DNA from: Syntrophomonadaceae bacterium
GTDB lineage: Bacteria; Bacillota; DSM-12270; Thermacetogeniales; Thermacetogeniaceae
Assembly: GCA_012840385.1 (NCBI GenBank)
Contig: DULK01000081.1
Span: 1 to 46,150 of the forward strand
Length of the DNA: 46,150 nt
Reading direction: 5' to 3'
Under the pieces are notes generated by a model. It was not told the DNA's origin. It made no database searches and saw only the letters and a program-made list of their open reading frames with translations. This document shows positions 26,802 through 41,156 of the stretch, piece after piece. The translations under genes were made by a program, and so were the position numbers. Every line of letters starts with the position of its first letter. The stretch's first letter is position 1.

Positions 26802-27114
26802 AAATGTAATCCGTCAGCATCATGATGGGTGGAAGAGCCGGACAGGCTTCTGGAAAGAGCCCGCCCGACGCTCTACCCGGACAATGTGCGCTTGAGAAAC
26901 TCATCGGGACAAGAATAAATTCGCCGGGCAATGCCCGGTCACGGTTTTCTTTATAGTGAAATAAGATAGTGATATAAGTTTTTCAAAAAATCAGCTCTTG
27001 CAAATATTGCCTGTATAACCTTTCAGGAAGATCTGCAAACATAATGTCCCCCGCCAGGATGTAAGAACAACTATAGAACATTGTAAAACGATCCTTTCTC
27101 GACAGCCTTTCTCT
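26802..27114. other. Intergenic stretch after vapBC 2
   Basis: It contains a CCGGGCAATGCCCGG hairpin followed by a T-rich tract (26924-26947), probably the vapBC terminator, and then AT-rich sequence with no gene. Confidence 0.5.
26924..26947 (+). terminator. Probable terminator of vapBC 2
   Basis: CCGGGC/GCCCGG hairpin, then TCACGGTTTTCTTT. The T run starts six bases after the stem, so termination strength is uncertain. Confidence 0.45.
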
Positions 27115-27207
27115 TGGTCCCAAGTATATAAACTCTTCGCAAGAAATCCCCCGTTAGCGCAAAAATTTTGAATTGAGGGGGATTGTGCCCCAAATTATTA
27201 TAAAATT
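27115..27207 (+). promoter_or_regulatory. Shared control element, copy 1 (module I operon)
   Basis: The last ~62 bases are almost identical, one substitution by eye, to the minus-strand copy at 34423-34511. The upstream ~30 bases are alike but diverged. It holds an inverted repeat (ATCCCCC / GGGGGAT, about 24 bases apart, with AAAATTTT in the middle), a GGGGGATTGTGCCCC palindrome, and an AT-rich TTATTATAAAATT suited to a -10 region. It precedes the corrinoid-protein gene. The other copy precedes the divergent methyltransferase gene, so both are probably bound by one regulator. Confidence 0.85.
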
Positions 27208-27453
27208 GCAGAGGTTCACCGGTGACAATTCATCAGCAGGGCTTCCAAAAGGTGCTGCACGTGCGGCCTGCTAGAGTTGGATTTTCCGGGATGATTCCCT
27301 TTGGTGATGCCATTACCCTAAGTAGGCTTCTGAAACTTTCGTTATCTCTGACCAGCGGTAACTGCCTCCGTGTGCGGGTATTCATCCCGGTAATTCATGC
27401 TCATAACTAAAAAAAGTACGGTGAAATGTCAAAAAATATTAGGAGGTTTGAAA
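27208..27453 (+). other. Long untranslated leader of the module I operon
   Basis: About 245 bases between the control element and the first start codon. It contains a GCAGG...CCTGC hairpin (27236-27273) and other short stems. No known riboswitch consensus was recognised, including cobalamin, SAM and THF. It is not shared with the other operon carrying the same control element. Confidence 0.35.
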
Positions 27454-28077
27454 ATGGAAGAACTAACAAAAGCAATTGTTGAATTAGAAAATGAAAAAGT
27501 TACCAAAATGGTGAAGGATGAGCTCGTTAAAGGAACAGCAGTAGAAGAGATTGTTGAAAAATGCAGGCAGGGCATGGAAATAGTCGGTCAGAAGTTCAGC
27601 AAAGGGGAATACTTCCTTCCCGAATTAATTATGGCCGGAGAGATTTTTAACTCCATCATCGAGATCATCCGTCCTGTTCTAGCGGAAGCCAAAACAAATA
27701 CTGTTGGAAAGATTGTCCTGGCAACTGTCCAAAATGACATCCACGATATTGGAAAGAATGTATTCAAGGGATTTGCGGAGGCTAACGGCTTTGATGTCCA
27801 CGACCTGGGAGTAGATGTCGATCCCGAAACAATTGTCAATACCATTAAAAATGAAAAGCCGGATATTGTCGGCCTGAGCTGTCTCCTCACATCAGCTTTT
27901 GACTCCATAGAAAACACAATCGCTAAAATCAAAGAAGCAGGTGTCCGCGACCAGGTAAAAATTATCATCGGTGGTGCTCCGGTAAGCGAAGAGCTTAAGG
28001 ATTGGTCGGGCGCTGACGCCGCCACCAGGAGCGCTGCTGAAGGTGTGCAACTCTGTAAAGAATTATTGAAGAAATAG
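27454..28077 (+). CDS. Corrinoid (methyl-carrier) protein, module I
   Basis: 207 residues from ATG 27454 behind AGGAGG. An upstream in-frame ATG at 27397 gives a basic tail foreign to the family. The helical cap domain is at 1-80 and the B12-binding Rossmann domain at about 85-207. The lower-ligand motif D95-x-H97-x-x-G100 is in NDIHDIGKN. It carries the methyl group between the URO-D-type methyltransferase coded next and a methyltetrahydrofolate-type partner, probably the one at 33487-34284. It is the MtaC/MtvC/MtoC type of protein. Confidence 0.93.
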   Translation: MEELTKAIVELENEKVTKMVKDELVKGTAVEEIVEKCRQGMEIVGQKFSKGEYFLPELIMAGEIFNSIIEIIRPVLAEAKTNTVGKIVLATVQNDIHDIGKNVFKGFAEANGFDVHDLGVDVDPETIVNTIKNEKPDIVGLSCLLTSAFDSIENTIAKIKEAGVRDQVKIIIGGAPVSEELKDWSGADAATRSAAEGVQLCKELLKK

Positions 28078-28090
28078 GAAAGGAGGTCCG

Positions 28091-29275
28091 ATGAACATGG
28101 CTGAAAATAAGAACTTGAAATTATATGAGGAGCGGTTAAACCGCATAGTCAAAGCGATGCAGCTTGAAGAACCCGACCGTGTTCCTCTGATCCCGCCAGA
28201 AGAAGGTTACTGGGTTGCTGCGTATGCCGGGTATTCTGTCGCCGATGTTACCTATGACTACTCCCTGCTGGCGGCAGCGTGGGAAAAGGCTTTTACGGAC
28301 TTTCCGGAGTGGGATGCCGCTTACGCTCCATTCTGCGTATGGTCCGGCCCTATGTTCGAATTCGCGGGGATCACTCAATTTGCCCTTGCCGGGAAAGACG
28401 GTGCTGCCCAGAAGATGCACCAGTGGAAACAGGTTTCCTGTATGTCTGAAGACGAGTACGACGAACTGATTGCCGATCCCTACAAGTTCCTCCTGGAAAA
28501 AATCTTGCCGCGGCGCTGCAAGGAATTAGGAAAACCATACCCCAGAAATGCAATGGCTTTTGGGAAAGCCTTCCAGGAGTTCCTGAGCTGGCTCGGTTAC
28601 TGGGGTGCAAAAGGTGCCGAATGGAAAGAGAAATTCGGCATGCCGGTACTCGCCGGCGGATTTACCGAAGCCCCCATTGACTTCCTGATGGATCACTTGC
28701 GCGGCTTTAAGGAATTCTCTCTTGATTTGCGGAAGTTACCGAAGGAAACTATCATCCGGGCCTGTGAAGCCCTGCTTCCCTACATGATCAAGTGGGCAAC
28801 CACAGGAACCCGGCCGGCTCTCTTCCCGCCAATCTTCATTCCACTGCATTTTGCTCCTTTCATTTCACCTGATTGTTTCAAGGAATTCTACTGGCCTACC
28901 TTCAAAAAACTTGTCGATTCACTGGTCGAACTGGGATATGGCGTAATCATCTACTGTGAATCAAACTGGACACCGCACCTGGCTTACCTGAAAGAACTTC
29001 CAAAAGGAAAAGTGATTGCCGAGTTCGAAACAATTGATATGAAAGAGGCCAAAAAGCTCATCGGAGATACAGTCTGCCTGATGGGCAACCTCCCCTACGA
29101 ACTGCTTGTGTACGGGACAAAGGAGAAAATTGAAGATTATACCAAGAAGCTGATTGATGAAGCCGCGCCAGGTGGAGGCTTTATCATGTCCGCCGATAAA
29201 ATCTTTGGTGAAAATGTCAACCCCAAATGCATGAGGTACTGGTGCGAAGCCGTAGTTAAATACGGTCAATACTAA
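28091..29275 (+). CDS. URO-D-superfamily corrinoid methyltransferase, module I
   Basis: 394 residues. ATG 28091 lies 4 bases after AGGAGG; ATG 28097, two codons on, is equally possible. The fold family is that of uroporphyrinogen decarboxylase, which includes MtaA/MtbA, CmuA and O-demethylase methyltransferases: early DRVPLIPPE, GVIIYCESNW, then KGKVIAEFETIDMKEAKKLIG and CLMGNLPYELLVYGT. The HxC zinc motif of MtaA-type enzymes is replaced by YCESNW. Together with the adjacent corrinoid protein, this suggests a primary substrate:corrinoid methyltransferase (for example for a methoxylated compound) rather than a coenzyme-M-type enzyme. Confidence 0.85.
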   Translation: MNMAENKNLKLYEERLNRIVKAMQLEEPDRVPLIPPEEGYWVAAYAGYSVADVTYDYSLLAAAWEKAFTDFPEWDAAYAPFCVWSGPMFEFAGITQFALAGKDGAAQKMHQWKQVSCMSEDEYDELIADPYKFLLEKILPRRCKELGKPYPRNAMAFGKAFQEFLSWLGYWGAKGAEWKEKFGMPVLAGGFTEAPIDFLMDHLRGFKEFSLDLRKLPKETIIRACEALLPYMIKWATTGTRPALFPPIFIPLHFAPFISPDCFKEFYWPTFKKLVDSLVELGYGVIIYCESNWTPHLAYLKELPKGKVIAEFETIDMKEAKKLIGDTVCLMGNLPYELLVYGTKEKIEDYTKKLIDEAAPGGGFIMSADKIFGENVNPKCMRYWCEAVVKYGQY

Positions 29276-29384: not shown

Positions 29385-29537
29385 ATGAGTGAAAAATTAC
29401 CGCCGGTTGTCTCCGAGTACTATAAACTTATAGAAGAAACTGGAAATGAAAGTGCAGCAGCTGCAGCCATGGCAAGGAAGTGGAACATTGCCGAAGATCT
29501 TGTTCTCTCGTTTGTCCTGTTTCTAGTTAGTTACTAA
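29385..29537 (+). CDS. Small hypothetical protein, 50 residues
   Basis: ATG 29385 follows a very good AAGGAGGAAAGG site at ideal spacing. The frame reads MSEKLPPVVSEYYKLIEETG, an alanine-rich middle (AAAAAMARKWNIAED) and a hydrophobic end (LVLSFVLFLVSY). A perfect hairpin follows 14 bases after the stop. The strong ribosome site and position at the end of a methyl-transfer operon argue that it is real. I know no family for it. Confidence 0.55.
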   Translation: MSEKLPPVVSEYYKLIEETGNESAAAAAMARKWNIAEDLVLSFVLFLVSY

Positions 29538-29695: not shown

Positions 29696-29843
29696 AGCTC
29701 GCTTCTCCAGAATAAACCTATTGGGGCATCAGGAGCGAGCATAACAAAAGTGGAGTGTTCTTTTGCGGTTTGTGCACGTTTCTCCTTGGCAGGTCCAGTG
29801 GAAAGTAGCGAGGGAGGGCTTAGATCTGAGCAGGAAGGTCTTC

Positions 29844-31667
29844 ATGACAATTGCCGAAACATTAATCAAAGGTGATTCCTTCGGGGTTAAACAGTTGATA
29901 GAGCAGGCCCTGGAGGGGGGGATCGCTCCTGAGGACATTATCAAAGAAAGCCTGATCCCGGGCATGGAAACAGTAAGCGTCAAATTCCAGAGCGGTGAAT
30001 TCTACGTGATGGATGTTATCACCGCAGCGGATGCTATGCAAACTGGTATCAAGATACTGAAAGAAAGGTCTCGCGGCGAAAGAATACTTGATTTCCATGG
30101 CCGGATTGTCATCGGAACAGTGGAGGGTGACATCCATGATCTGGGCAAGAACATCGTCGCCCTGACGCTGGAAGGGGCGGGGTACGAAGTCATTGACCTG
30201 GGTGTGAATGTTTCCCCGGCTCAGTTCGTAGAGGCCATCGCAAAATTCCACCCGGATCTCGTCTGCATCTCCGCCCTGCTGACAGTGACCATGTGCAACA
30301 TCGAAGATGTCATCAAAGCCATCAAAGAAGCCGGCTTCCGGGAACAGGTCAAAATTATCATCGGGGGGGCGCCGATCACCCAGAGCTTTTCCGACAGGAT
30401 CGGGGCAGATGCTTATGTCAAATACGGCACTGATGCTCCTTATAAGGCAAGAGAGCTGTTAAAAAGTAGCAAGCAAAAAGATTTACGGGATCATCTGGCG
30501 GCAGTCCTGGACGCAAAATGCCAGGAAAGGTTGAAGGCGCTGCTCGAAGTTTGCCCCACCTTCATAGACGCGGCAGGGAATGTCATCCTCCAGGGGGATG
30601 GGGAGCCCCCTGGGCCTTGCCTACAGTGCCCGGAATGGCGGCAGCAGCAGTACATCGAGAATGCCGGGATCTTCTCCTGCCCCTGCGGCTTTATAAAAAT
30701 CGACGCAACAGTTATACTTGAAGGTAAAGCACTGGGGAAGATCTCCTTCGGTCCCTTTGCAGAAGGGATCGCCTCAACAGGAGGAGGCGGTTTCTCCCAT
30801 AACAGGGCTGGCTCAACCTGCCCTCGTATTAATGGGCCGGAGAACGAATTCGCTTTCCAGAGCATGAAAGCACCTCCACTGAAAGCGGAAAAAATGCTTC
30901 TCATTATCCAGGCTTTTTCCGAGCTTGTGCAGGAAAAGATAAAGGAGCAGCAGCTACAGCAGCAAATCGAAGAACAAAAAGAAAGCCTGATCCGTTCGCT
31001 GAAATTCCAGGAAGAGCTGAAGAACGCCCTTAATGAAGCAAACTACCGCTCACTGCAGTCACAGGTTAACCCCCATTTTTTGTTCAACAGCCTGAACAGT
31101 CTGGCCCGCATGGCAATGCTGGAAGGAGCGGAGCAAACCGAAAAACTGTCCTACGCTCTCGCACGAATTCTTCGCTACATCCTCCAGAACTTCAAGGGTA
31201 CGGTTACCATCGCCGAAGAAATCAAAATGCTTCAGGACTACCTCTTCATCCAGCAGGCACGTTTTTCCGATCGTCTCCAAATAGAGTTTCAGCTTGAAGA
31301 AGGTATTGAGAAGGCGCACATTCCCTGCTTGGTACTGCAGCCGCTCGTGGAGAATGCCGTCCTGCACGGTATTGAGCCTCTTGAAGGGGAAGGAGTACTC
31401 AAGATCTGCGGCAGGCTGGAAAAGCAGAAGATCATTTTCGAAATAAGGGATAACGGGGTCGGTATCCCCCCCAGCAAACTGAAGGAAATTTCCCAGCTCA
31501 ACATTAACAGCTCCGGACGCGGCCATACGACCGGTCTCGGTCTTGCCCACGTCCACCAGCGCCTCCAGCATTACTTCGGGGCCGATTATGGCCTGGAAAT
31601 TGAAAGCCATGAGAACGAAGGCACTCTAGTGAGGATAAATTTTCCCTATATCCACCAGGGTGGGTGA
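29844..31667 (+). CDS. Sensor histidine kinase with B12-binding and PocR domains
   Basis: 607 residues from ATG 29844 (AGGAAGG site; 27 extra in-frame residues upstream are not family-like). Order: corrinoid cap domain (1-80); B12-binding domain (85-205) with D96-x-H98-x-x-G101; PocR-type sensory domain (about 215-320) with cysteines C237, C259, C262, C279 and C281; coiled coil (360-400); LytS-type kinase with phospho-accepting H411 in NPHFLFN; and ATPase boxes LVENAVLHG and DNGVGIP. No membrane helix. It probably senses a bound corrinoid or its methylation state and signals to the regulator coded 6 bases downstream. Confidence 0.9.
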   Translation: MTIAETLIKGDSFGVKQLIEQALEGGIAPEDIIKESLIPGMETVSVKFQSGEFYVMDVITAADAMQTGIKILKERSRGERILDFHGRIVIGTVEGDIHDLGKNIVALTLEGAGYEVIDLGVNVSPAQFVEAIAKFHPDLVCISALLTVTMCNIEDVIKAIKEAGFREQVKIIIGGAPITQSFSDRIGADAYVKYGTDAPYKARELLKSSKQKDLRDHLAAVLDAKCQERLKALLEVCPTFIDAAGNVILQGDGEPPGPCLQCPEWRQQQYIENAGIFSCPCGFIKIDATVILEGKALGKISFGPFAEGIASTGGGGFSHNRAGSTCPRINGPENEFAFQSMKAPPLKAEKMLLIIQAFSELVQEKIKEQQLQQQIEEQKESLIRSLKFQEELKNALNEANYRSLQSQVNPHFLFNSLNSLARMAMLEGAEQTEKLSYALARILRYILQNFKGTVTIAEEIKMLQDYLFIQQARFSDRLQIEFQLEEGIEKAHIPCLVLQPLVENAVLHGIEPLEGEGVLKICGRLEKQKIIFEIRDNGVGIPPSKLKEISQLNINSSGRGHTTGLGLAHVHQRLQHYFGADYGLEIESHENEGTLVRINFPYIHQGG

Positions 31668-31673
31668 TTATAG

Positions 31674-33299
31674 TTGTATTCTGTCATGATTGTAGACGAT
31701 GAAGCCCTGGAAAGAAAAGGGTGGAGGATGATCCTGGAAAGATATCGGTCGGACCAGATCCGTGTGGCCGTAGAGGCGAAAAACGGCAAAGAAGCGGTGG
31801 AACTGGCATGGAAAACGCGACCCGACATCATCCTGATGGATGTGAAAATGCCGGGACTTGACGGGATTATGGCCAGCAAAGCCATAAAGAAGTTTCTTCC
31901 TGAGGTCAAAATAATCATTATTTCCGCCTATGACGATTTTGCCTACGCTCATGAGGCAATGCAGTTGAGGGCTGTGAACTACCTCTTAAAACCCGTTCAG
32001 CGCGGGGACATGCTTGATATCATCGACAGGCAGCTACAAGAGTTGGAAAATGAAAGGAAGCGAAAGGCGGAAGAAGAGGAACTACGGGAAGCGCTCCAGA
32101 GGATGATGCCTTACATCAAAATTGGCTTTATCTTCGAACTGCTAGCGGGAAATGTCAAATCCGCTGCAGAGATTCGTGAGAGAGCAGAATTTCTGGGAAT
32201 CAAACAGCTGCCGCAGGTAATACTTGTTGCCAACATTGATAACTTTGTGCAGCTCACCAGGAACAAGAAGGAAATCGAGCGCCAAGTTCTGAAACACAAA
32301 ATCTTTGAAAAAATAACAGCAGTTTCTAGAGAATGGCCGCAGAGCCTCTGCATCCCCTTGCAAGAGGACAAATATGGGATCCTTCTGGGGCCGCAGGATG
32401 GTGAGCATCCGGAAAAGCTGCGCAGGCGTGCTGAACGCCTAGCGGAGACCATAAGAAGGGAGATCGAAAACGATCCCTTTATCCACACTACGGTCACCAT
32501 CGGAATAGGAAGGACCTACCGAGAGGTTGACAATCTCCATCTTTCCTATAAAGAGGCCCTGAGGGCGCTTGAATACAAGCTCTATACAGACGGAAACCAG
32601 GTCATACATATTGACGATGTGCTCCCCTACGATGAACGCATTCACACCTACCCCTATACACTGGAGAAGGAGCTTATCTCCAGTTTCCGCATCGGAGACA
32701 GGGAATGTGCTCTCCAGTGGCTGGAAGAGTTACTTAGTGAACTGCTTTCCAAAACAAACAACAATCCCGTTCTTCTCAAAACCCGGCTGCTCCAACTGCT
32801 GCTCGTTCTCTCCCGCCAGGCAATCGAAAGCGGGGCAGATCCCGAAGAAGTAGGCAGACAGGATTTTACCTGCGCTCAGGAACTGCAGAGCAAAGAGAAT
32901 TTAAATGAACTGCGGAAGTGGGTTGTGGCAAAAGTTGAACAGTTGATACGGTTGATTCAGGAAAGCCGCAGCCAGCGCCAGGAAAACATCATGAAAAAAG
33001 TGGTTAACTACATCCACCAGCACTACCACCGCGACCTTACCCTGGAAGAGGTAGCAGAAGCGGTCCATTTCAGCCCCTGCTACCTGAGCCGGATCTTCAA
33101 ACAGATGCAGAAAGTCAATTTCATCGATTACCTCACTCGGGTAAGGCTGGAAAAAGCAAAAATGCTACTCAAAGCAAGCAACTATTCCATCTCGAGCATT
33201 GCCAGAAAAGTCGGGTACCAGGATCCCAAATACTTCAGTACCCTATTCAAAAAGCACGTTGGCTGTACACCGAGCGAGTACCGGCAGAATATTGCATAG
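31674..33299 (+). CDS. AraC-type response regulator (YesN-like)
   Basis: 541 residues from TTG 31674 (GGGTGGG upstream; ATG 31686 is a weaker alternative inside the first strand). The receiver domain spans 1-120, with the VDDE acidic pair near the N-terminus, the phospho-site aspartate in IILMDVKMPG, and KPVQ. A long middle region (about 130-420) with coiled-coil and YesN/GGDEF-like folds follows. The C-terminal AraC DNA-binding domain has FSPCYLSRIFKQM and ISSIARKVGYQDPKYFSTLFKK. It is the partner of the B12-domain kinase. The duplicated control element at 27115 and 34511 is its most likely target. Confidence 0.92.
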   Translation: MYSVMIVDDEALERKGWRMILERYRSDQIRVAVEAKNGKEAVELAWKTRPDIILMDVKMPGLDGIMASKAIKKFLPEVKIIIISAYDDFAYAHEAMQLRAVNYLLKPVQRGDMLDIIDRQLQELENERKRKAEEEELREALQRMMPYIKIGFIFELLAGNVKSAAEIRERAEFLGIKQLPQVILVANIDNFVQLTRNKKEIERQVLKHKIFEKITAVSREWPQSLCIPLQEDKYGILLGPQDGEHPEKLRRRAERLAETIRREIENDPFIHTTVTIGIGRTYREVDNLHLSYKEALRALEYKLYTDGNQVIHIDDVLPYDERIHTYPYTLEKELISSFRIGDRECALQWLEELLSELLSKTNNNPVLLKTRLLQLLLVLSRQAIESGADPEEVGRQDFTCAQELQSKENLNELRKWVVAKVEQLIRLIQESRSQRQENIMKKVVNYIHQHYHRDLTLEEVAEAVHFSPCYLSRIFKQMQKVNFIDYLTRVRLEKAKMLLKASNYSISSIARKVGYQDPKYFSTLFKKHVGCTPSEYRQNIA

Positions 33300-33486: not shown

Positions 33487-34284
33487 CTAGAAATCGAATT
33501 TATTTTTTCTGTAAGCCTTAAGATAATTGGTGCAATATTTATCCCGGCCCGCCAGCGTCTCGGCAGCAGTTATGCAAGCCATCATCCGCTGATCCAGCGG
33601 GTTGATGATCAGAGCGTCGAGTCCCTTTGCTATGGCCATCACCGCAAAGGTCTGATTCAAGAATTTGCGGGCCGGCAATCCGTAAGAGATGTTGGAAAGC
33701 CCGCATATCGTGTGCACACCGGCAAACCCGGTCATGATGGCCTCAACGGCGTTCAGAAATTCGATGCCAAAGGTATCTTTTGTCCCCACCGGCTGAACCA
33801 GGGGGTCTACGTAGATGTTATCAAGAGGAATGTTGGCTCTGGTCAAACCATTGATGAGCTTTTCGGCAATCTTTAGCCTGTCATCCGTGGTTTCAGGCAT
33901 GCCATCATCGCTCATGCAGAGTGCCACCACTTTCAGATCGGTGCCGGAGATAACCGGCAGGAGGGCGTCATAGCGTTGCTTCTCCAGGGAAATGGAATTG
34001 ATCATTGCCACTCCTCTATGCACTGTCAGAGCGGCCTCGATGGCTTTCGGGTCGGGACTGTCAATGCAACAAGGGCAGTCCACCACCTCCTGGACGTTCT
34101 GAACCAGCCATTTCAGATAGTCGGCCTCTTTGCCCACAAATATTCCGGCATTGACATCAATGTAATCAGCCCCTGCCTGGCGCTGTTCCCGGGCCACCTT
34201 TTTGATGGCATCAGCGTCCTGTGCCTCGATCATTTCTGCAATCGGCTTGCGGCTGGCATTGATCAGTTCTCCAACAACCAGCAT
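33487..34284 (-). CDS. DHPS-like corrinoid:tetrahydrofolate methyltransferase, module I
   Basis: 265 residues on the minus strand. The pterin-binding TIM-barrel family of MtgA/MtvA/AcsE is evident from the opening GELINASRKPI, YIDVNAGIF, CIDSPDPKAIEAAL, MINSIS, VVALCMSDDGMP, YVDPLVQPVG and GLSNISYGLP. It would move the methyl group from the corrinoid protein to tetrahydrofolate, or the reverse. It is transcribed divergently from module II but preceded by the same control element as the module I operon, so it belongs functionally to that operon. It is clearly homologous to the protein at 38665 but not a recent duplicate. Confidence 0.92.
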   Translation of the reverse strand: MLVVGELINASRKPIAEMIEAQDADAIKKVAREQRQAGADYIDVNAGIFVGKEADYLKWLVQNVQEVVDCPCCIDSPDPKAIEAALTVHRGVAMINSISLEKQRYDALLPVISGTDLKVVALCMSDDGMPETTDDRLKIAEKLINGLTRANIPLDNIYVDPLVQPVGTKDTFGIEFLNAVEAIMTGFAGVHTICGLSNISYGLPARKFLNQTFAVMAIAKGLDALIINPLDQRMMACITAAETLAGRDKYCTNYLKAYRKNKFDF

Positions 34285-34422: not shown

Positions 34423-34511
34423 AATTTTATAATAATTTGGGGCACAATCCCCCTCAATTCAAAATTTTTGCGCTAATGGGGGATCTCTTGCCGAGAGTTC
34501 ATACTTGGACC
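34423..34511 (-). promoter_or_regulatory. Shared control element, copy 2 (divergent methyltransferase gene)
   Basis: The reverse complement nearly duplicates 27115-27207, including the ATCCCCC/GGGGGAT inverted repeat, GGGGGATTGTGCCCC and the AT-rich promoter-proximal end. It faces the minus-strand methyltransferase gene with about 140 bases of leader in between. Confidence 0.85.
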
Positions 34512-34685: not shown

Positions 34686-34702
34686 TTGGCATAAAACTTG
34701 CG
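34686..34702 (+). promoter_or_regulatory. Sigma-54 (RpoN) promoter of module II
   Basis: TTGGCATAAAACTTGCG matches the -24/-12 consensus (TGGCAC-N5-TTGC) at every position except C to T next to the -24 box, with the GG and GC 12 bases apart. Transcription should begin near 34713, ahead of the MttB-family gene. A sigma-54 activator is coded in the same cluster. Confidence 0.85.
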
Positions 34703-34843
34703 ATAACAGCCGGCAGGGCTATTTTTACATCTACTATCTTGCCCAGGGTTAACCCGGGAATTTGTTTCTTGAAGTAAAGGAGGGGTTCATTAGGGGTCGA
34801 TGCTTGGTTAGCCTGACACTTAATTATGAGGGGAGGATTTACA

Positions 34844-36328
34844 GTGATCAGAAGTCTGAAGGCAGGATTTAATTCATTATCGGGATTCGGGCTGAACGCC
34901 TTTACAGCAGATGAGTTGGAATCGCTTCACCTTGCCACGCTGGAAGTGCTGTCCGAGGTGGGGATCAAAGTAGAGTCCGACGAGGCCATCGAGATATTCC
35001 AGGGTGCAGGTGCCAAGGTTGAACGGGTCAAGGATTACGGTATTGTAAAGTTTCCTCACTACCTTGTGGAGGATTGCATCCGGTGGGCTCCCAGAAACGT
35101 TATATATTACGGAAGAGATAGCAATAAAGATTACATCCTGGAACCCAAACGGGTAGGCTTCAGCACTTTTGGCGAGTGCATCCAGGTGATTGATCCCTAT
35201 ACCAGGCAGGTTAGAAAATCGGTCAAGAGTGATCTGGGAGGAGCTACCCTGGTTTGTGACTACCTGGATGAGATTGTTGCGGTTGAAAGGGCTCTCTGCT
35301 CTTCGGATCAGTTTCCCGAAACGCAGCCGTTACATAATTTCGAGGCAATGGTCACAAACACCGGCAAACATCTTCTGCTCGGTTTTGGAAGTGGTGCAAA
35401 CACGAAAAAGATTATCGAAATGGCGGCGGCATGCGTCGGGGGTATGGAAAATTTCAAGAAGCGGCCTATTGTGACGGCATTTGTATGCCCCACCAGTCCT
35501 CTGACCCTCGTTAAGAGGTGCTGTGAAGTTATCATCGAGTGCGCCCGGCTTGGAGCGGGTATAGCCATTATCCCCATGGCCCTGTCCGGTGCAACCTCGA
35601 CCGCGACCCTGGCGGGGACGCTGGTTCAGCATAACGCGGAAGTATTGAGTGCTTTGATGCTGGCCCAGTTGACCAACAAGGGTACGCCCTGCACCTATTC
35701 AAGCTGCACTACAATGATGGATTTGAGATTTACGATTACGGCCGTCGGCGCTCCAGAATACGGGATTATCAGCGCCGGATTGGCTAAACTTGCCCAGTAT
35801 TACCGGCTTCCGGTATGGGTGGGTGGAGGCCATTCGGACAGCAAGCTTCCCGATGCCCAGGCAGCCTATGAAGCCAGTATAACTGCAACCGTCGCTGCGT
35901 TAGCCGGTGCCAATGTTATTTACGGTGCGGGTTGCCTGGAATCCGGTTTGACCTTTGATTATGCCAAACTGGTTATGGACGCCGAAATGATCAGGGGGGT
36001 TCAACAGGTTGTCAAGGGGATCGAAGTTAATGACGAAACTTTGGGGATTGACGTTATTAAAGAAGTGGGTCCCGGCGGTGAGTTCATGACACATCCCCAT
36101 ACTTTCAAACACATGAAAGAATTGTCCCAGTCCCGATTGTTTGACAGGAGAAACCGTGAGTCCTGGCAGGAGTTTGCAGGCGGTAAGGACCTGACGGAGC
36201 GAGCCTATGAAGAAGCAAAGCACATCCTTGAGAACCACAAGCCTGCGCCGCTGCCTGACGGTGCTGCCGAAGCCATGAAGTCTATTATCGAGGAGTATGA
36301 AGCGGAACTGAAAACCAACCACCAGTAA
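34844..36328 (+). CDS. MttB-superfamily quaternary-amine:corrinoid methyltransferase (MtgB-like)
   Basis: 494 residues from GTG 34844 behind GAGGGGAGGA. The MttB family (COG5598) is recognised from LHLATLEVLSEVGIKV, FSTFGECIQVIDPYTRQVRKS, LVQHNAEVLSALMLAQL and LPDAQAAYEASITATVAALAGANVIYGAGCLESG. There is no in-frame TAG, so it is a non-pyrrolysine member, the group that includes glycine betaine (MtgB), carnitine and proline betaine methyltransferases. It would pass one methyl group to the corrinoid protein at 37941. The BCCT gene 22 bases on supports a betaine-like substrate. First gene of the sigma-54 operon. Confidence 0.9.
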   Translation: MIRSLKAGFNSLSGFGLNAFTADELESLHLATLEVLSEVGIKVESDEAIEIFQGAGAKVERVKDYGIVKFPHYLVEDCIRWAPRNVIYYGRDSNKDYILEPKRVGFSTFGECIQVIDPYTRQVRKSVKSDLGGATLVCDYLDEIVAVERALCSSDQFPETQPLHNFEAMVTNTGKHLLLGFGSGANTKKIIEMAAACVGGMENFKKRPIVTAFVCPTSPLTLVKRCCEVIIECARLGAGIAIIPMALSGATSTATLAGTLVQHNAEVLSALMLAQLTNKGTPCTYSSCTTMMDLRFTITAVGAPEYGIISAGLAKLAQYYRLPVWVGGGHSDSKLPDAQAAYEASITATVAALAGANVIYGAGCLESGLTFDYAKLVMDAEMIRGVQQVVKGIEVNDETLGIDVIKEVGPGGEFMTHPHTFKHMKELSQSRLFDRRNRESWQEFAGGKDLTERAYEEAKHILENHKPAPLPDGAAEAMKSIIEEYEAELKTNHQ

Positions 36329-36350
36329 GGAGTAAGAAGGAGGATGGAAT

Positions 36351-37919
36351 ATGGCACAAGAAAAAAGGCTGAAGCTGGATCATGCGTTATTCTGGCCGCC
36401 GCTGTTATTGATCTCGTTAATATGTGCCTATATTATCGGTCATCCGGCCAAAGCGAAAACCATATCCGACAATGCCCTGGCCTGGGTTACGGACAAGCTG
36501 GGCTGGGCCTTTGAGTGGTACGTAGTGGCGCTGTTTCTGATCGCCCTTTATATGATCTTTGGGAAGTTGGGCAACAAGAAACTCGGTTCAGGTGAACCCG
36601 AATTTAAAACTTTCAGCTGGTTGGGATTGATGTTTACCTCAACGGCCAGCGCGGCTCTAATCTACTGGGCCACGATCGAATGGTTCTACTACATGAAGAC
36701 CCCACCATGGGGTGCCAAGCCCTTCTCCCCTGAAGCGGCAGACTGGGCGTCCTGTTACGGCATGTACCACTGGGGGTTAATTCCCGTAGCCATGTATGTG
36801 GTGATTGCCGTGGCCATCGGCTATAACTTCTTTATCAGGAAGAGGAAAGTCATCAGACCGAGCGATGTCTGCGGAATTCTCGGTCAGCAGAAGGACAGGC
36901 TGCTCGGGAAAGTTATCGATGTCCTCTACATCATCGGTATGGTGGCCGGCGTCGGCACCTCGTTGGGTTTGGGGACACCGCTGATAGCAGAGTTGATCTC
37001 CAAAATTTTCGGGGTTCAACATACTCTGTCTCTCGACGGCTACATACTGATTGCCTGGATCGCTCTGTTTACCACCTGCCTCTACTTCGGTTTGCAGAAA
37101 GGCATCAAGTTCTTAAGTGACGTCAGAATCTGGCTGGCATTCGGTGTGCTGATATTTGTCCTGGTGGTCGGACATACGTCTTATATCCTGAACTCCTTCA
37201 CCCAGGCTCTGGGCACCATGCTCCAGAACATTGTCAGAATGTCGCTCTATACCGATCCCCACGGAAAATCCGGATGGCCGCAGGGTTGGACCATCTTCTA
37301 CTGGGCATGGTTCTTGAACTGCGTGATTACGTATGCCATCTATCTGGTCCGCATCTCCAGGGGTAGAACGGTAAAGGAATTCGGTCTTGCGGTACTGGGT
37401 TCCATCACTCTCGGCGAGATGGTCTTCTTCGCCGTCTTTAGCAACTATGCCATGTACGTGCACGAGAATCACATTTTGAATATTGCTCATTACTTTGATA
37501 AGTTCGGCCCTGCCAGAGCTATTGTGGAGATCTGGGCGACTTTACCGCTGGCCAAGATAGTCCTGCCGATTCTCCTGATTTACGCCTTCATTTCCACGGC
37601 CACGTTTATCAACGGTGTGGCCTATACCCTGGCTATGGTGACTACTAAGGAGATCACCGAGGATGATGAGCCTTCCAAACTGAACCGGGTCACCTGGGCT
37701 CTCTTGCTGGGTGTACTGGCGATATCACTGCTCTTTATGGGAGGTTTAGGCCCTCTCCAGACTTCGGCTGTCGTCGGCGGGTTGCCGATGATGATCGTGT
37801 GTATCGTGATACCTATCTCGTTTTTTAAAGAAGTGAAGAAGTGGGGTTGGAAGACGAACGGTGAGGGTCCGGAAATCGAGGTTCCTGAAGAGACGGCTCT
37901 TTCACAGCGAATGATTTAA
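36351..37919 (+). CDS. BCCT-family betaine/carnitine/choline transporter
   Basis: 522 residues, about 12 membrane helices. The family region AALIYWATIEWFYY (helix 3-4) and the signature near SGWPQGWTIFYWAWFLNCVITYAIYLVRISRGRTV (about 305-340) are clear. It imports a quaternary ammonium compound, by exchange or with an ion. Its place between the methyltransferase and corrinoid-protein genes makes it the substrate entry route of module II. The CaiT- or BetP-like mode cannot be decided by eye. Confidence 0.93.
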   Translation: MAQEKRLKLDHALFWPPLLLISLICAYIIGHPAKAKTISDNALAWVTDKLGWAFEWYVVALFLIALYMIFGKLGNKKLGSGEPEFKTFSWLGLMFTSTASAALIYWATIEWFYYMKTPPWGAKPFSPEAADWASCYGMYHWGLIPVAMYVVIAVAIGYNFFIRKRKVIRPSDVCGILGQQKDRLLGKVIDVLYIIGMVAGVGTSLGLGTPLIAELISKIFGVQHTLSLDGYILIAWIALFTTCLYFGLQKGIKFLSDVRIWLAFGVLIFVLVVGHTSYILNSFTQALGTMLQNIVRMSLYTDPHGKSGWPQGWTIFYWAWFLNCVITYAIYLVRISRGRTVKEFGLAVLGSITLGEMVFFAVFSNYAMYVHENHILNIAHYFDKFGPARAIVEIWATLPLAKIVLPILLIYAFISTATFINGVAYTLAMVTTKEITEDDEPSKLNRVTWALLLGVLAISLLFMGGLGPLQTSAVVGGLPMMIVCIVIPISFFKEVKKWGWKTNGEGPEIEVPEETALSQRMI

Positions 37920-37940
37920 AACAAAGGGAGGATACGTACA

Positions 37941-38576
37941 ATGAGTGATTTCGATAGTTTGGCCCAGGCAGTATTTCACGGTGATTTTGACGGTGTCGTA
38001 TCTGCTACAAAGAATCTTTTGGACCGTGGCGTCAACCCGCTGGATGTTATCAACAAAGGGCTTTTAGCAGGAATGGACATCGTGGCTCCCAAATTTAAGG
38101 CCGGCGAAATGTTCGTTCCGGAGGTGATGATGTGCGCTAAGGCCTTAGGGGAAGGCATGAAAATCGTTCAACCTCTTCTTTCATCTTCCGAGGCGGCTTC
38201 GGCGGGTACGGTGGTAATCGGAACCGTTGCCGGTGACCTGCATGACATCGGTAAGAATTTGGTTGTCATGATTCTCAAGAGCGGCGGCTTTAACGTCATC
38301 GACCTTGGCGTCGATGTTTCCCCGGAGGGCTTCGTAAATGCAATAAAGGAACACAGTCCTCAGATTGTAGGCATGTCCGCCCTGTTGACCACAACCATGG
38401 TAAATATGAAGAAAACCCTGGATGCGATGGAGGCGGCAGGGGTGCGGGATAAGGTAAAGGTGATTATTGGCGGCGCCCCTGTTTCTCAGAGCTTTGCCGA
38501 TGAAATCGGAGCCGACGGTTATGCGCCGGACGCCATGGCGGCCAAGGAGCTGTGTGCAAAAATCATCAAGGGTTAA
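37941..38576 (+). CDS. Corrinoid (methyl-carrier) protein, module II
   Basis: 211 residues from ATG 37941 (GGGAGG site). Cap domain at 1-85 and B12-binding domain at about 88-211, with D99-x-H101-x-x-G104 in GDLHDIGKN. It is MtgC/MttC-like. It accepts the methyl group from the MttB-type enzyme and donates it to the DHPS-like enzyme coded next. It shares the general fold, but limited sequence, with the module I protein at 27454. Confidence 0.94.
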   Translation: MSDFDSLAQAVFHGDFDGVVSATKNLLDRGVNPLDVINKGLLAGMDIVAPKFKAGEMFVPEVMMCAKALGEGMKIVQPLLSSSEAASAGTVVIGTVAGDLHDIGKNLVVMILKSGGFNVIDLGVDVSPEGFVNAIKEHSPQIVGMSALLTTTMVNMKKTLDAMEAAGVRDKVKVIIGGAPVSQSFADEIGADGYAPDAMAAKELCAKIIKG

Positions 38577-38583
38577 ATGGCGG

Positions 38584-38615
38584 TAGTCAGGAAACCGTTC
38601 GTTGTTTCCTGACTA
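38584..38615 (+). terminator. Strong hairpin between corrinoid protein and methyltransferase genes
   Basis: TAGTCAGGAAAC / GTTTCCTGACTA, 12-bp perfect arms, no immediate T run. It sits 8 bases after the stop codon. It may lower expression of downstream genes or stabilise the upstream mRNA, which is common where the corrinoid protein is needed in excess. Confidence 0.5.
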
Positions 38616-38664
38616 CTCCCTCAGTTTTTATAAAGTTATTAAATCTTGATAGGGGGATGGTCAA

Positions 38665-39471
38665 ATGCTGATCATAGGGGAACTGATCAATACCAGCCGT
38701 AAACCGATTAAAGAGGCGGTGGAGAAAAGGGATGCGGGGTATATCAAAAAGATCGCCAAAGAACAGATCGAAGCAGGGGCGCACTACATCGATGTAAACT
38801 GCGGGACTATGGTTTTTAACGAAGTGGAAATGATGGAGTGGCTTGTTACTAATGTCCAGGATGCCGTGGAAGCTCCGTTGTGTATAGATAGTCCCAACCC
38901 TGAGGCCCTGGAGGCAGGGTTGAGGTTGTGTAGATACGGTCAACCGATGATTAACTCCATAACCGATGAAAAGGAGAGATTTGATAAGGTTCTCCCCCTT
39001 GTATTGAAGTACAGGGCCAAGATAGTGGCACTGTGTATGGATGATACCGGAATGCCTGATACGGCGGAGGACCGCATGCGTGTGGCGAGAAATTTGCATG
39101 CCAAACTTACCGCCGCAGGGGTTCCGGAAGAGGATATCTATTTCGACCCTCTTGTCAAGCCTGTTAGCAGTGTTGAGACCGCAGGCATAGAAGTGCTGGA
39201 AACAATCAAGATGATCAAAGAGCAGTACCCCAAGGTCCATTTCACGTGCGGACTCAGCAACGTGTCGTACGGGCTGCCAAACCGCAAGGTCCTGAACCGC
39301 TATTTTGTTGTTCAAACCATGGCTATGGGAATGGACGGCTATATTCTGGACCCGACCGATAGGGATATGATGGGTGCCATTTACGCCTCCATGGCTCTTT
39401 TGGGGCAGGATGCATATTGCATGGGCTACATAACCGCTCATAGAAAGGGCCTGTACAGACATGAGAGCTAG
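38665..39471 (+). CDS. DHPS-like corrinoid:tetrahydrofolate methyltransferase, module II (MtgA-like)
   Basis: 268 residues from ATG 38665 (AGGGGGATGG site). Blocks: GELINTSRKPIKEAV, YIDVNCGTMV, CIDSPNPEALEAGL, MINSITDE, IVALCMDDTGMPDTAEDR, YFDPLVKPVSS, FTCGLSNVSYGLPNRK. It completes the methyl path of module II by methylating tetrahydrofolate. It is similar in length and blocks to the protein at 33487-34284, so each module has its own enzyme of this kind. Confidence 0.93.
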   Translation: MLIIGELINTSRKPIKEAVEKRDAGYIKKIAKEQIEAGAHYIDVNCGTMVFNEVEMMEWLVTNVQDAVEAPLCIDSPNPEALEAGLRLCRYGQPMINSITDEKERFDKVLPLVLKYRAKIVALCMDDTGMPDTAEDRMRVARNLHAKLTAAGVPEEDIYFDPLVKPVSSVETAGIEVLETIKMIKEQYPKVHFTCGLSNVSYGLPNRKVLNRYFVVQTMAMGMDGYILDPTDRDMMGAIYASMALLGQDAYCMGYITAHRKGLYRHES

Positions 39472-39677: not shown

Positions 39678-41156
39678 ATGCCAGTCAATAATGAAGTGTC
39701 CGGGATTGCAAATGAGCGGATTGACGGTAAGGAGAGCCCGGTTGACCTGGATGCCGCAACATTAAAAAAAATCCTTGATAATTCCTACGACGAGATTTTC
39801 GTCCTCGATGGTAATGGGCGCGTCATTTATGTAAACAATGCTTGCGAACGTCACTACGGTATGAAAGTATCCGAGGTTATAGGCAAAACCATCACCGAAT
39901 TGATCGGTCTTGGATACTGGCATCCGCCGGTAACACCGATTGTTCACAGAGAAAAGCGGCGGGTTACCATTGAACAAACAACTTATCTCGGTAAGAAGTT
40001 GATAACTACCGTAACTCCTGTCTTCGATGAAAAAGGGGAAATTGAGCTCACCGTACACAATGCCCGCGATCTGACGCAGCTTGAGGCCGTCAAGTACGAG
40101 CTTGAAATGACGCGCCACAGCCTGGTCAATTATAGAAAAAAAAGTAAGACCGACAATCCTAAAAGGGCATTCGGTGAGATAATCTGTCACAGCAAAAAAA
40201 TGAAGGAACTGGTTGAATTTGCAGAGCAGATTGCCTGCGTGGATTCGACTGTTCTGATCTTAGGTGAATCGGGTACCGGGAAGGGGCTGTTTGCCAGGCA
40301 TATTCATAAAAACAGCAGGAGAAAAGACGGCCCTTTCCTTGCCCTCAACTGTGCCGCAATTCCTGAGGACCTGCTTGAGTCCGAGTTGTTCGGCTACTCA
40401 AATGGCGCCTTTACGGGAGCGGAGCGGGGAGGAAAAAAAGGCCTGATTGAACTGGCTAACGGAGGAACTCTCTTTCTGGATGAAATTGCGGAACTATCTC
40501 CCCGGCTGCAGGCAAAGATCCTGCAGGTGATTCAGGAGCGGCAGTTTATACCCGTCGGCGGCACGGAAGTCAAAAAAGCTGATGTAAGAATAATTTCAGC
40601 AACCAATCAAGACCTGCCGGACATGGTTGAGAAGGGCTCATTTCGTAAAGACCTTTATTACCGGTTAAATGTTATCGAGATCAATATTCCACCCTTAAGA
40701 GAACGTCCTGAAGACATTATTCCCCTGGTCTACTTTTACATTGAGAAATTCAATAAGAAATACAACGTTTGCCGCGATGTCTCAAAAGAATGTCTGGAGA
40801 CATTGTGCCGGTACAGCTGGCCGGGGAATGTGCGCGAGCTTGAGAACCTTATTGAACGGTTGGTCGTATCGGTTCGTGATAATGAGATTAAGACAGAACA
40901 TCTTCCGAAACTTTTCCAACAAGAATTTAAAACAGAACGCCGTACCGGCAACTTGACTGTCGACAATAACACCTTTAGCTTTCCTCCAAATGTTCCTTTT
41001 GACGTGATAATGCGAGAGGTTGAAAAAGAGTTGATCACTCGAGCTTATCGAGAATACGGCAGTTCGAGAAAGGTGGCAAAAGCGCTCAAGATCAGCCAGA
41101 CGAAGGCGTCCCGATTGATTCGTAAATATTGTAAGAATATGGAGGTGGCTCTTTAA
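39678..41156 (+). CDS. PAS-domain sigma-54-dependent transcriptional activator
   Basis: 492 residues. PAS domain at about 28-135; AAA+ domain at about 165-395 with Walker A GESGTGKG (196-203), the sigma-54-contacting GAFTGA loop (243-248), Walker B TLFLDEI (264-270) and the WPGNVREL region; Fis-like helix-turn-helix at 460-484. It should activate the sigma-54 promoter at 34686 from the palindrome at 34604. The PAS domain is the likely input, perhaps sensing the amine or a redox cue. The stop codon overlaps the start of the next gene. Confidence 0.93.
   Translation: MPVNNEVSGIANERIDGKESPVDLDAATLKKILDNSYDEIFVLDGNGRVIYVNNACERHYGMKVSEVIGKTITELIGLGYWHPPVTPIVHREKRRVTIEQTTYLGKKLITTVTPVFDEKGEIELTVHNARDLTQLEAVKYELEMTRHSLVNYRKKSKTDNPKRAFGEIICHSKKMKELVEFAEQIACVDSTVLILGESGTGKGLFARHIHKNSRRKDGPFLALNCAAIPEDLLESELFGYSNGAFTGAERGGKKGLIELANGGTLFLDEIAELSPRLQAKILQVIQERQFIPVGGTEVKKADVRIISATNQDLPDMVEKGSFRKDLYYRLNVIEINIPPLRERPEDIIPLVYFYIEKFNKKYNVCRDVSKECLETLCRYSWPGNVRELENLIERLVVSVRDNEIKTEHLPKLFQQEFKTERRTGNLTVDNNTFSFPPNVPFDVIMREVEKELITRAYREYGSSRKVAKALKISQTKASRLIRKYCKNMEVAL

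Follow-up and report, generated by a model that had tools for sequence, protein, structure and literature searches.

The window analysed here, the whole 46,150-nucleotide stretch of contig DULK01000081.1 from a Syntrophomonadaceae bacterium, carries a two-component system among genes for corrinoid-dependent methyl transfer. On the forward strand, genes that Pfam assigns to a corrinoid protein (corrinoid protein 1, 27397-28077, start possibly at 27454) and a UroD/MtaA-superfamily methyltransferase (28091-29275) are followed by a soluble 607-residue B12-PocR-LytS sensor histidine kinase (29844-31667) with orthologues in relatives, and by a YesN-type response regulator (31674-33299). The Pfam-assigned gene for a pterin-binding methyl-THF:corrinoid methyltransferase (the folate methyltransferase gene) lies on the reverse strand at 33487-34284. 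By inspection, the UroD-type protein reads YCES where MtaA-type enzymes presumably carry their zinc motif HxC, and it is possibly a zinc-free methyltransferase I like CdmB. Upstream of the kinase, an ORF for a 50-residue small protein (29385-29537, forward strand, MSEKLPPVVSEYYKLIEETGNESAAAAAMARKWNIAEDLVLSFVLFLVSY) has a strong ribosome-binding site; it is found at the same place in two other genera with 86-90% identity, and a hairpin then follows.

The first-pass annotation of this DNA had proposed that the kinase carries the complete cap and B12-binding domains of a methyl-carrier corrinoid protein, and Pfam bears this out. The helical cap (29850-30062, forward strand) matches B12-binding_2 at residues 3-73 with an E value of 1e-17, and the core (30099-30437, forward) matches B12-binding at residues 86-198 with an E value of 5e-28, the two covering model positions 5-74 of 74 and 1-116 of 121. 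The expected D-x-H-x-x-G cobalt-ligand motif is present as D96-I-H98-D-L-G101 (30129-30146, forward). The LytS-type portion spans residues 400-601 and consists of His_kinase at 400-478 (31041-31277, forward; E value 3e-24), with the phospho-acceptor box P-H411-F-L-F-N, and HATPase_c at 496-601 (31329-31646, forward; E value 2e-12), with the N504 box, DNGVG and GLGLAHV; H-box, N-box and G-boxes are all intact. As had been stated, no transmembrane helix is evident in the kinase by hydropathy or in the predicted structure. By eye, translation may instead begin at a CTG at 29826, where one relative has TTG.

All domains of the kinase are significant in the protein itself except PocR. The region at residues of about 212-365 (30477-30938, forward) has the four cysteines that go with the proposed cysteine-bearing PocR domain (C259, C262, C279 and C281), and its PocR match falls below the Pfam cut-off (E 0.0008-0.005). 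Because PocR is matched at E 0.01 or better in 11 of 13 aligned full-length fusions (best 2e-17), we take the domain to be probably genuine although diverged in the source kinase. An AlphaFold2 model (mean pLDDT 82) places a long signalling helix, a probable coiled coil, at residues 348-405 (30885-31058, forward); the arrangement of the domains in it is uncertain since the pTM is 0.46. Structure comparison matched the modelled B12 module to MttC of the MttB-MttC complex (TM 0.77-0.84 over the target) and to PDB 1y80, and the modelled kinase part to GanS.

A profile built from 13 full-length fusions was used to survey the architecture, as the first-pass annotation had advised, across 398 genomes of the same phylum, and 20 of them, Moorella thermoacetica included, proved to encode a full-length fusion. 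The separation is clear: fusions score E below 1e-230 over the whole model, while PocR kinases without the module score E above 1e-117 and match only from about model position 202-226 onward. Full-length orthologues have 61-75% identity inside the source family and 34-40% in other families, and by these matches the architecture is far beyond chance. The fusion occurs in 6 of 20 genomes of the source class, a single family in this set, and in 12 of 22 genomes of the order that holds genome G032, 10 of them from one genus. A G032 protein is 100% identical across 208 residues to the M. thermoacetica protein of PDB 1y80, from which we infer that this genome belongs to M. thermoacetica or to a very close relative of it and that the genus is Moorella. 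No fusion turned up among 37 assorted named genomes, nor in 297 genomes from the phylum of a Desulfobacterales bin, the latter in a search that had no positive control; a plasmid search with the divergent region of the kinase returned nothing, and when genome contigs were scanned with the full alignment, nearly all hits were plain corrinoid proteins. The source genome also encodes a PocR-type kinase without a B12 module (C38:29135-29779, reverse strand), a natural control for the fusion.

Residues of 20 sensor modules were compared with those of 89 stand-alone carriers. Every sensor has D96, H98, G101, K102, N103, S143, G174 and G175, and likewise the cap residue F48, at a position like F708 of MetH. 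The carrier motifs D-x-H-x-x-G, S-x-L and GG are therefore present in 20/20, and the Asp-His-Thr ligand triad (96/98/149) in 19/20, T149 being kept in all but one. MttC has His107 and Thr158 at the same spacing as H98 and T149; in that carrier the triad controls how the His ligand is lost when the cobalt reaches Co(I), and binding of a methyltransferase moves the cap (PMC9842639). By analogy, these are two movements that a sensor could read. Sensors and carriers differ in several residues: cap position 56 is Pro in 82/89 carriers and in none of the sensors, cap position 57 is Glu in 76/89 carriers and Asp in 18/20 sensors, and C141 is found in every sensor vs 23/89 carriers. In a tree, sensor modules, with one or two origins, group apart from the adjoining carriers as a separate lineage, which ruled out recent duplication of a local carrier as their source.

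Mean identity between lineages is 55% for the B12 core and 26% for the PocR-like domain, and identity between the source family and distant fusions is 42-50% and 13-16%, respectively. Pairwise dN/dS in the source family, a rough measure here with dS near or above 1, is 0.076-0.092 for the B12 module, 0.051-0.089 for the kinase and 0.17-0.38 for the PocR-like domain; in Moorella all three are low. By these estimates the B12 module of the source family is as constrained as the kinase and the PocR-like domain is relaxed, so the corrinoid module, with its lower dN/dS and higher identity, is the more constrained input there. A divergent pair of fusions (L158:8506-10296 and one in L050) fits the view that the B12 module is the input that stays constant, since its B12 motif is intact and its PocR region nearly unrecognisable.

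We compared 21 fusion loci with 18 loci of the best PocR kinases without a B12 module, labelling neighbours by BLAST against window proteins and Pfam-checked proteins. In 18 of the 21, one or more genes for a corrinoid protein, a pterin methyltransferase, a UroD-type methyltransferase or RACo lie within 6.5 kb; two of the three exceptions sit on short contigs. None of the 18 B12-less kinases is near corrinoid methyl-transfer genes (Fisher p 3e-8, or 7e-5 with one locus per genus, values that overstate independence because the loci share descent). RACo, the reductive activator of cob(II) and a redox-state enzyme, accompanies the fusion in 12/21 loci vs 0/18. The only RACo gene found in the source genome (C36:62244-63032) is away from the kinase cluster. 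Several B12-less PocR kinases adjoin a diol dehydratase with its reactivase, and PocR systems beside diol dehydratase are already known from PDU1D loci (PMC4207490). The Moorella order is carrier, pterin methyltransferase, fusion kinase, regulator, RACo and UroD; from gene order and position, the carrier-methyltransferase pair would be mtvC5-mtvA3 of M. thermoacetica (Mothe_c21700 and 21690), transcripts of which are up on methanol (PMC13391211).

The AraC-type regulator named as the partner of the kinase is a protein with a receiver (D56), a GGDEF-like domain (GGDEF_2) and an AraC HTH, and a regulator of this YesN/AraC type stands beside the kinase in all 21 fusion loci. Its suggested target, an element at 27115-27207, proved real and is a plausible candidate regulator site: an 88-bp sequence at 27120-27207 (forward), before the corrinoid protein/UroD operon, recurs with 92% identity at 34423-34508 (reverse), before the pterin methyltransferase gene, and these are the sole copies genome-wide. 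Each contains a candidate direct repeat with 20-bp spacing, CGCAA-N15-CGCAA at 27138-27162 (forward) and, with G as a first-position variant, GGCAA-N15-CGCAA at 34468-34492 (reverse). The repeats end about 10 bp before the TTGAGG (-35 box) of a sigma-70-like promoter, TTGAGG-17-TATTAT, which is identical in the two copies (27173-27201, forward, and 34429-34457, reverse). Repeats next to the -35 box are a usual layout for AraC-type activators. The repeats of the first copy are also conserved ahead of the orthologous operon in another genus (L153:5969-5993), inside the best-conserved stretch of that upstream region (67-69% vs 36-62% around it). Duplication of the element before both units and conservation of its repeats in another genus support, without proving, control of both transcription units by the adjacent regulator. 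We prefer a DNA site to an RNA element or attenuator at 27110-27215, which was rejected because Rfam gave nothing credible, hairpin z-scores were weak (-1.0 to -1.9) and the G-run arms are lost in L153. The 16-mer TGAAWTGAGGGGGWTT was dropped as a regulon motif: the duplicated element accounts for two of the three places where it occurs exactly, and a mismatch-tolerant count in the window was not above chance.

The domains, residues, conservation, context and duplicated promoter element can be read directly from sequence, and the kinase very probably binds a corrinoid. We propose, with moderate confidence, that it is a corrinoid-state sensor that controls its own methyl-transfer cluster. In the cytosol, the N-terminal module would hold a cobamide base-off/His-on via H98, like methyl-carrier corrinoid proteins, and the Asp-His-Thr triad and the cap position would report the cobalt state, cob(I)/cob(II) vs methyl- or other cob(III). 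The signal would reach the LytS-type kinase by way of the PocR-type domain and the long helix, and the kinase would phosphorylate the adjacent YesN regulator; the latter would bind the 20-bp-spaced repeats that adjoin two -35 boxes, one before the corrinoid protein/UroD operon and the other before the pterin methyltransferase gene. State dependence and the direction of the response are predictions of this scheme, as is the regulator's site, and the PocR-type domain probably adds a second, lineage-specific small-molecule input. That RACo so often lies nearby favours redox as the signal, and the placement of the kinase in a methyltransferase cluster favours methylation. It is a tentative possibility that the sensor is itself a reporter carrier, its corrinoid reduced by RACo and methylated by the cluster methyltransferase, so that flux would set kinase output and transcription of the same genes. 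Methylation like that of a carrier, which the first-pass annotation had raised, is plausible and not implied, because sensors differ from carriers at the cap Pro-Glu; as this pair is absent from all sensors, carrier-like chemistry may have been lost.

Other readings of the module were weighed against a state sensor. It might report cobamide availability, apo vs holo, with the state not read and the enzymes made only if the cofactor exists. Regulators that respond to the presence of a cobamide are known in principle (B12 regulators and riboswitches), and the binding residues are fully conserved in the sensors. Mere binding would need neither the ligand triad nor cap F48, though, and both are retained; RACo as a partner in 12/21 fusion loci and the linkage to specific methyl-transfer operons also speak against a supply sensor, which we consider unlikely. 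The kinase might instead sense a methylated substrate or product through its PocR-type domain, in which case the B12 module would serve for docking or dimerisation and tether the kinase to the methyltransferases. In favour of this, simple hydrocarbon derivatives are what PocR domains are predicted to sense (Anantharaman and Aravind 2005, cited in PMC9768040 and PMC1592074), PocR kinases that lack the module occur with diol dehydratases, and quicker PocR evolution could reflect substrate switching. Against this stand the relaxed PocR-like domain of the source family, so much less alike than the B12 core in distant fusions, and an invariant cobalt ligand that a pure scaffold would not need, and we regard substrate sensing as quite improbable.

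A light sensor with adenosylcobalamin would be in keeping with the shared cap and B12-core fold of CarH and photocobilins. Kinase position 48, which we take to align with the CarH GxxW Trp in a register set by the motif spacing, is Phe in 20/20 fusions, and EH at 58-59 occurs in none. Since GxxW and EH are part of the light signature of such photoreceptors (PMC11796333), photoreceptor identity was rejected on signature, and light sensing of this type is hardly credible.

The B12 module of the kinase shares with methyl-carrier corrinoid proteins (MtaC, MttC, MtgC; PDB 1y80, 7xcn, 2i2x) the whole cap and core fold, the cobalt motif, S143, GG and the D/H/T triad, but it is fused to PocR and a kinase, has lost the cap Pro-Glu in 20/20 and is not a local-carrier copy. 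PocR two-component systems (PDU1D loci; the Clostridium butyricum 1,3-propanediol operon, PMC4207490; MecA, PMC9768040) likewise place a kinase and response regulator beside B12-dependent catabolic genes; unlike the fusion, they have no reported corrinoid-carrier module, nor was one present in the 18 loci examined. MecA, a 430-residue PocR kinase in the methyltransferase cluster of the dichloromethane (mec) cassette, has no B12 domain in its published description (PMC9768040); regulation of this sort can therefore do without the module. CarH and photocobilins are regulators built on the same fold, but they use adenosylcobalamin light chemistry, and the outputs of the described members are not histidine kinases. 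In Methanosarcina acetivorans, the sensor kinases MsmS and RdmS read redox and regulate methyl sulfide metabolism genes; they use haem or thiol (cysteine) instead of a corrinoid, and are archaeal, unconventional kinases whose regulators lack receiver domains (PMC6944256). B12-based regulators, PocR kinases and redox kinases for methyl metabolism were already known. In the open-access literature we found no account of a kinase that takes a methyl-carrier corrinoid module as its input, though Anantharaman and Aravind 2005 might mention the architecture, and such a sensor seems not to have been reported before.

How anaerobes choose among their many corrinoid methyltransferase systems has been called largely unexplored; Acetobacterium dehalogenans has 26, and the regulatory system for its chloromethane system is yet unidentified (PMC13222342). 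If the proposal is correct, a kinase with a carrier protein built in would explain the choice in some clusters in a concrete way that can be tested: it may sense directly what state the methyl-carrier cofactor is in and turn the enzyme genes on or off accordingly, giving B12-domain sensors a role besides light sensing. An orthologue seems to be present in the cultivated acetogen M. thermoacetica, which makes the idea testable beyond the source organism.

A second methyl-transfer unit lies at 34826-39471 of the window and comprises an MttB-family protein, a CaiT-like BCCT transporter, corrinoid protein 2 and a second pterin methyltransferase. The MttB-family protein passes the TIGR02369 cut-off and has no in-frame amber codon, and the unit is probably a quaternary-amine demethylation system. 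A sigma-54-like site with one mismatch precedes the MttB gene (34687-34702, forward), at a frequency no higher than chance, and a PrdR-like sigma-54 activator gene lies downstream of the unit (39678-41156, forward). The MttB unit may be under other control than that of the kinase.
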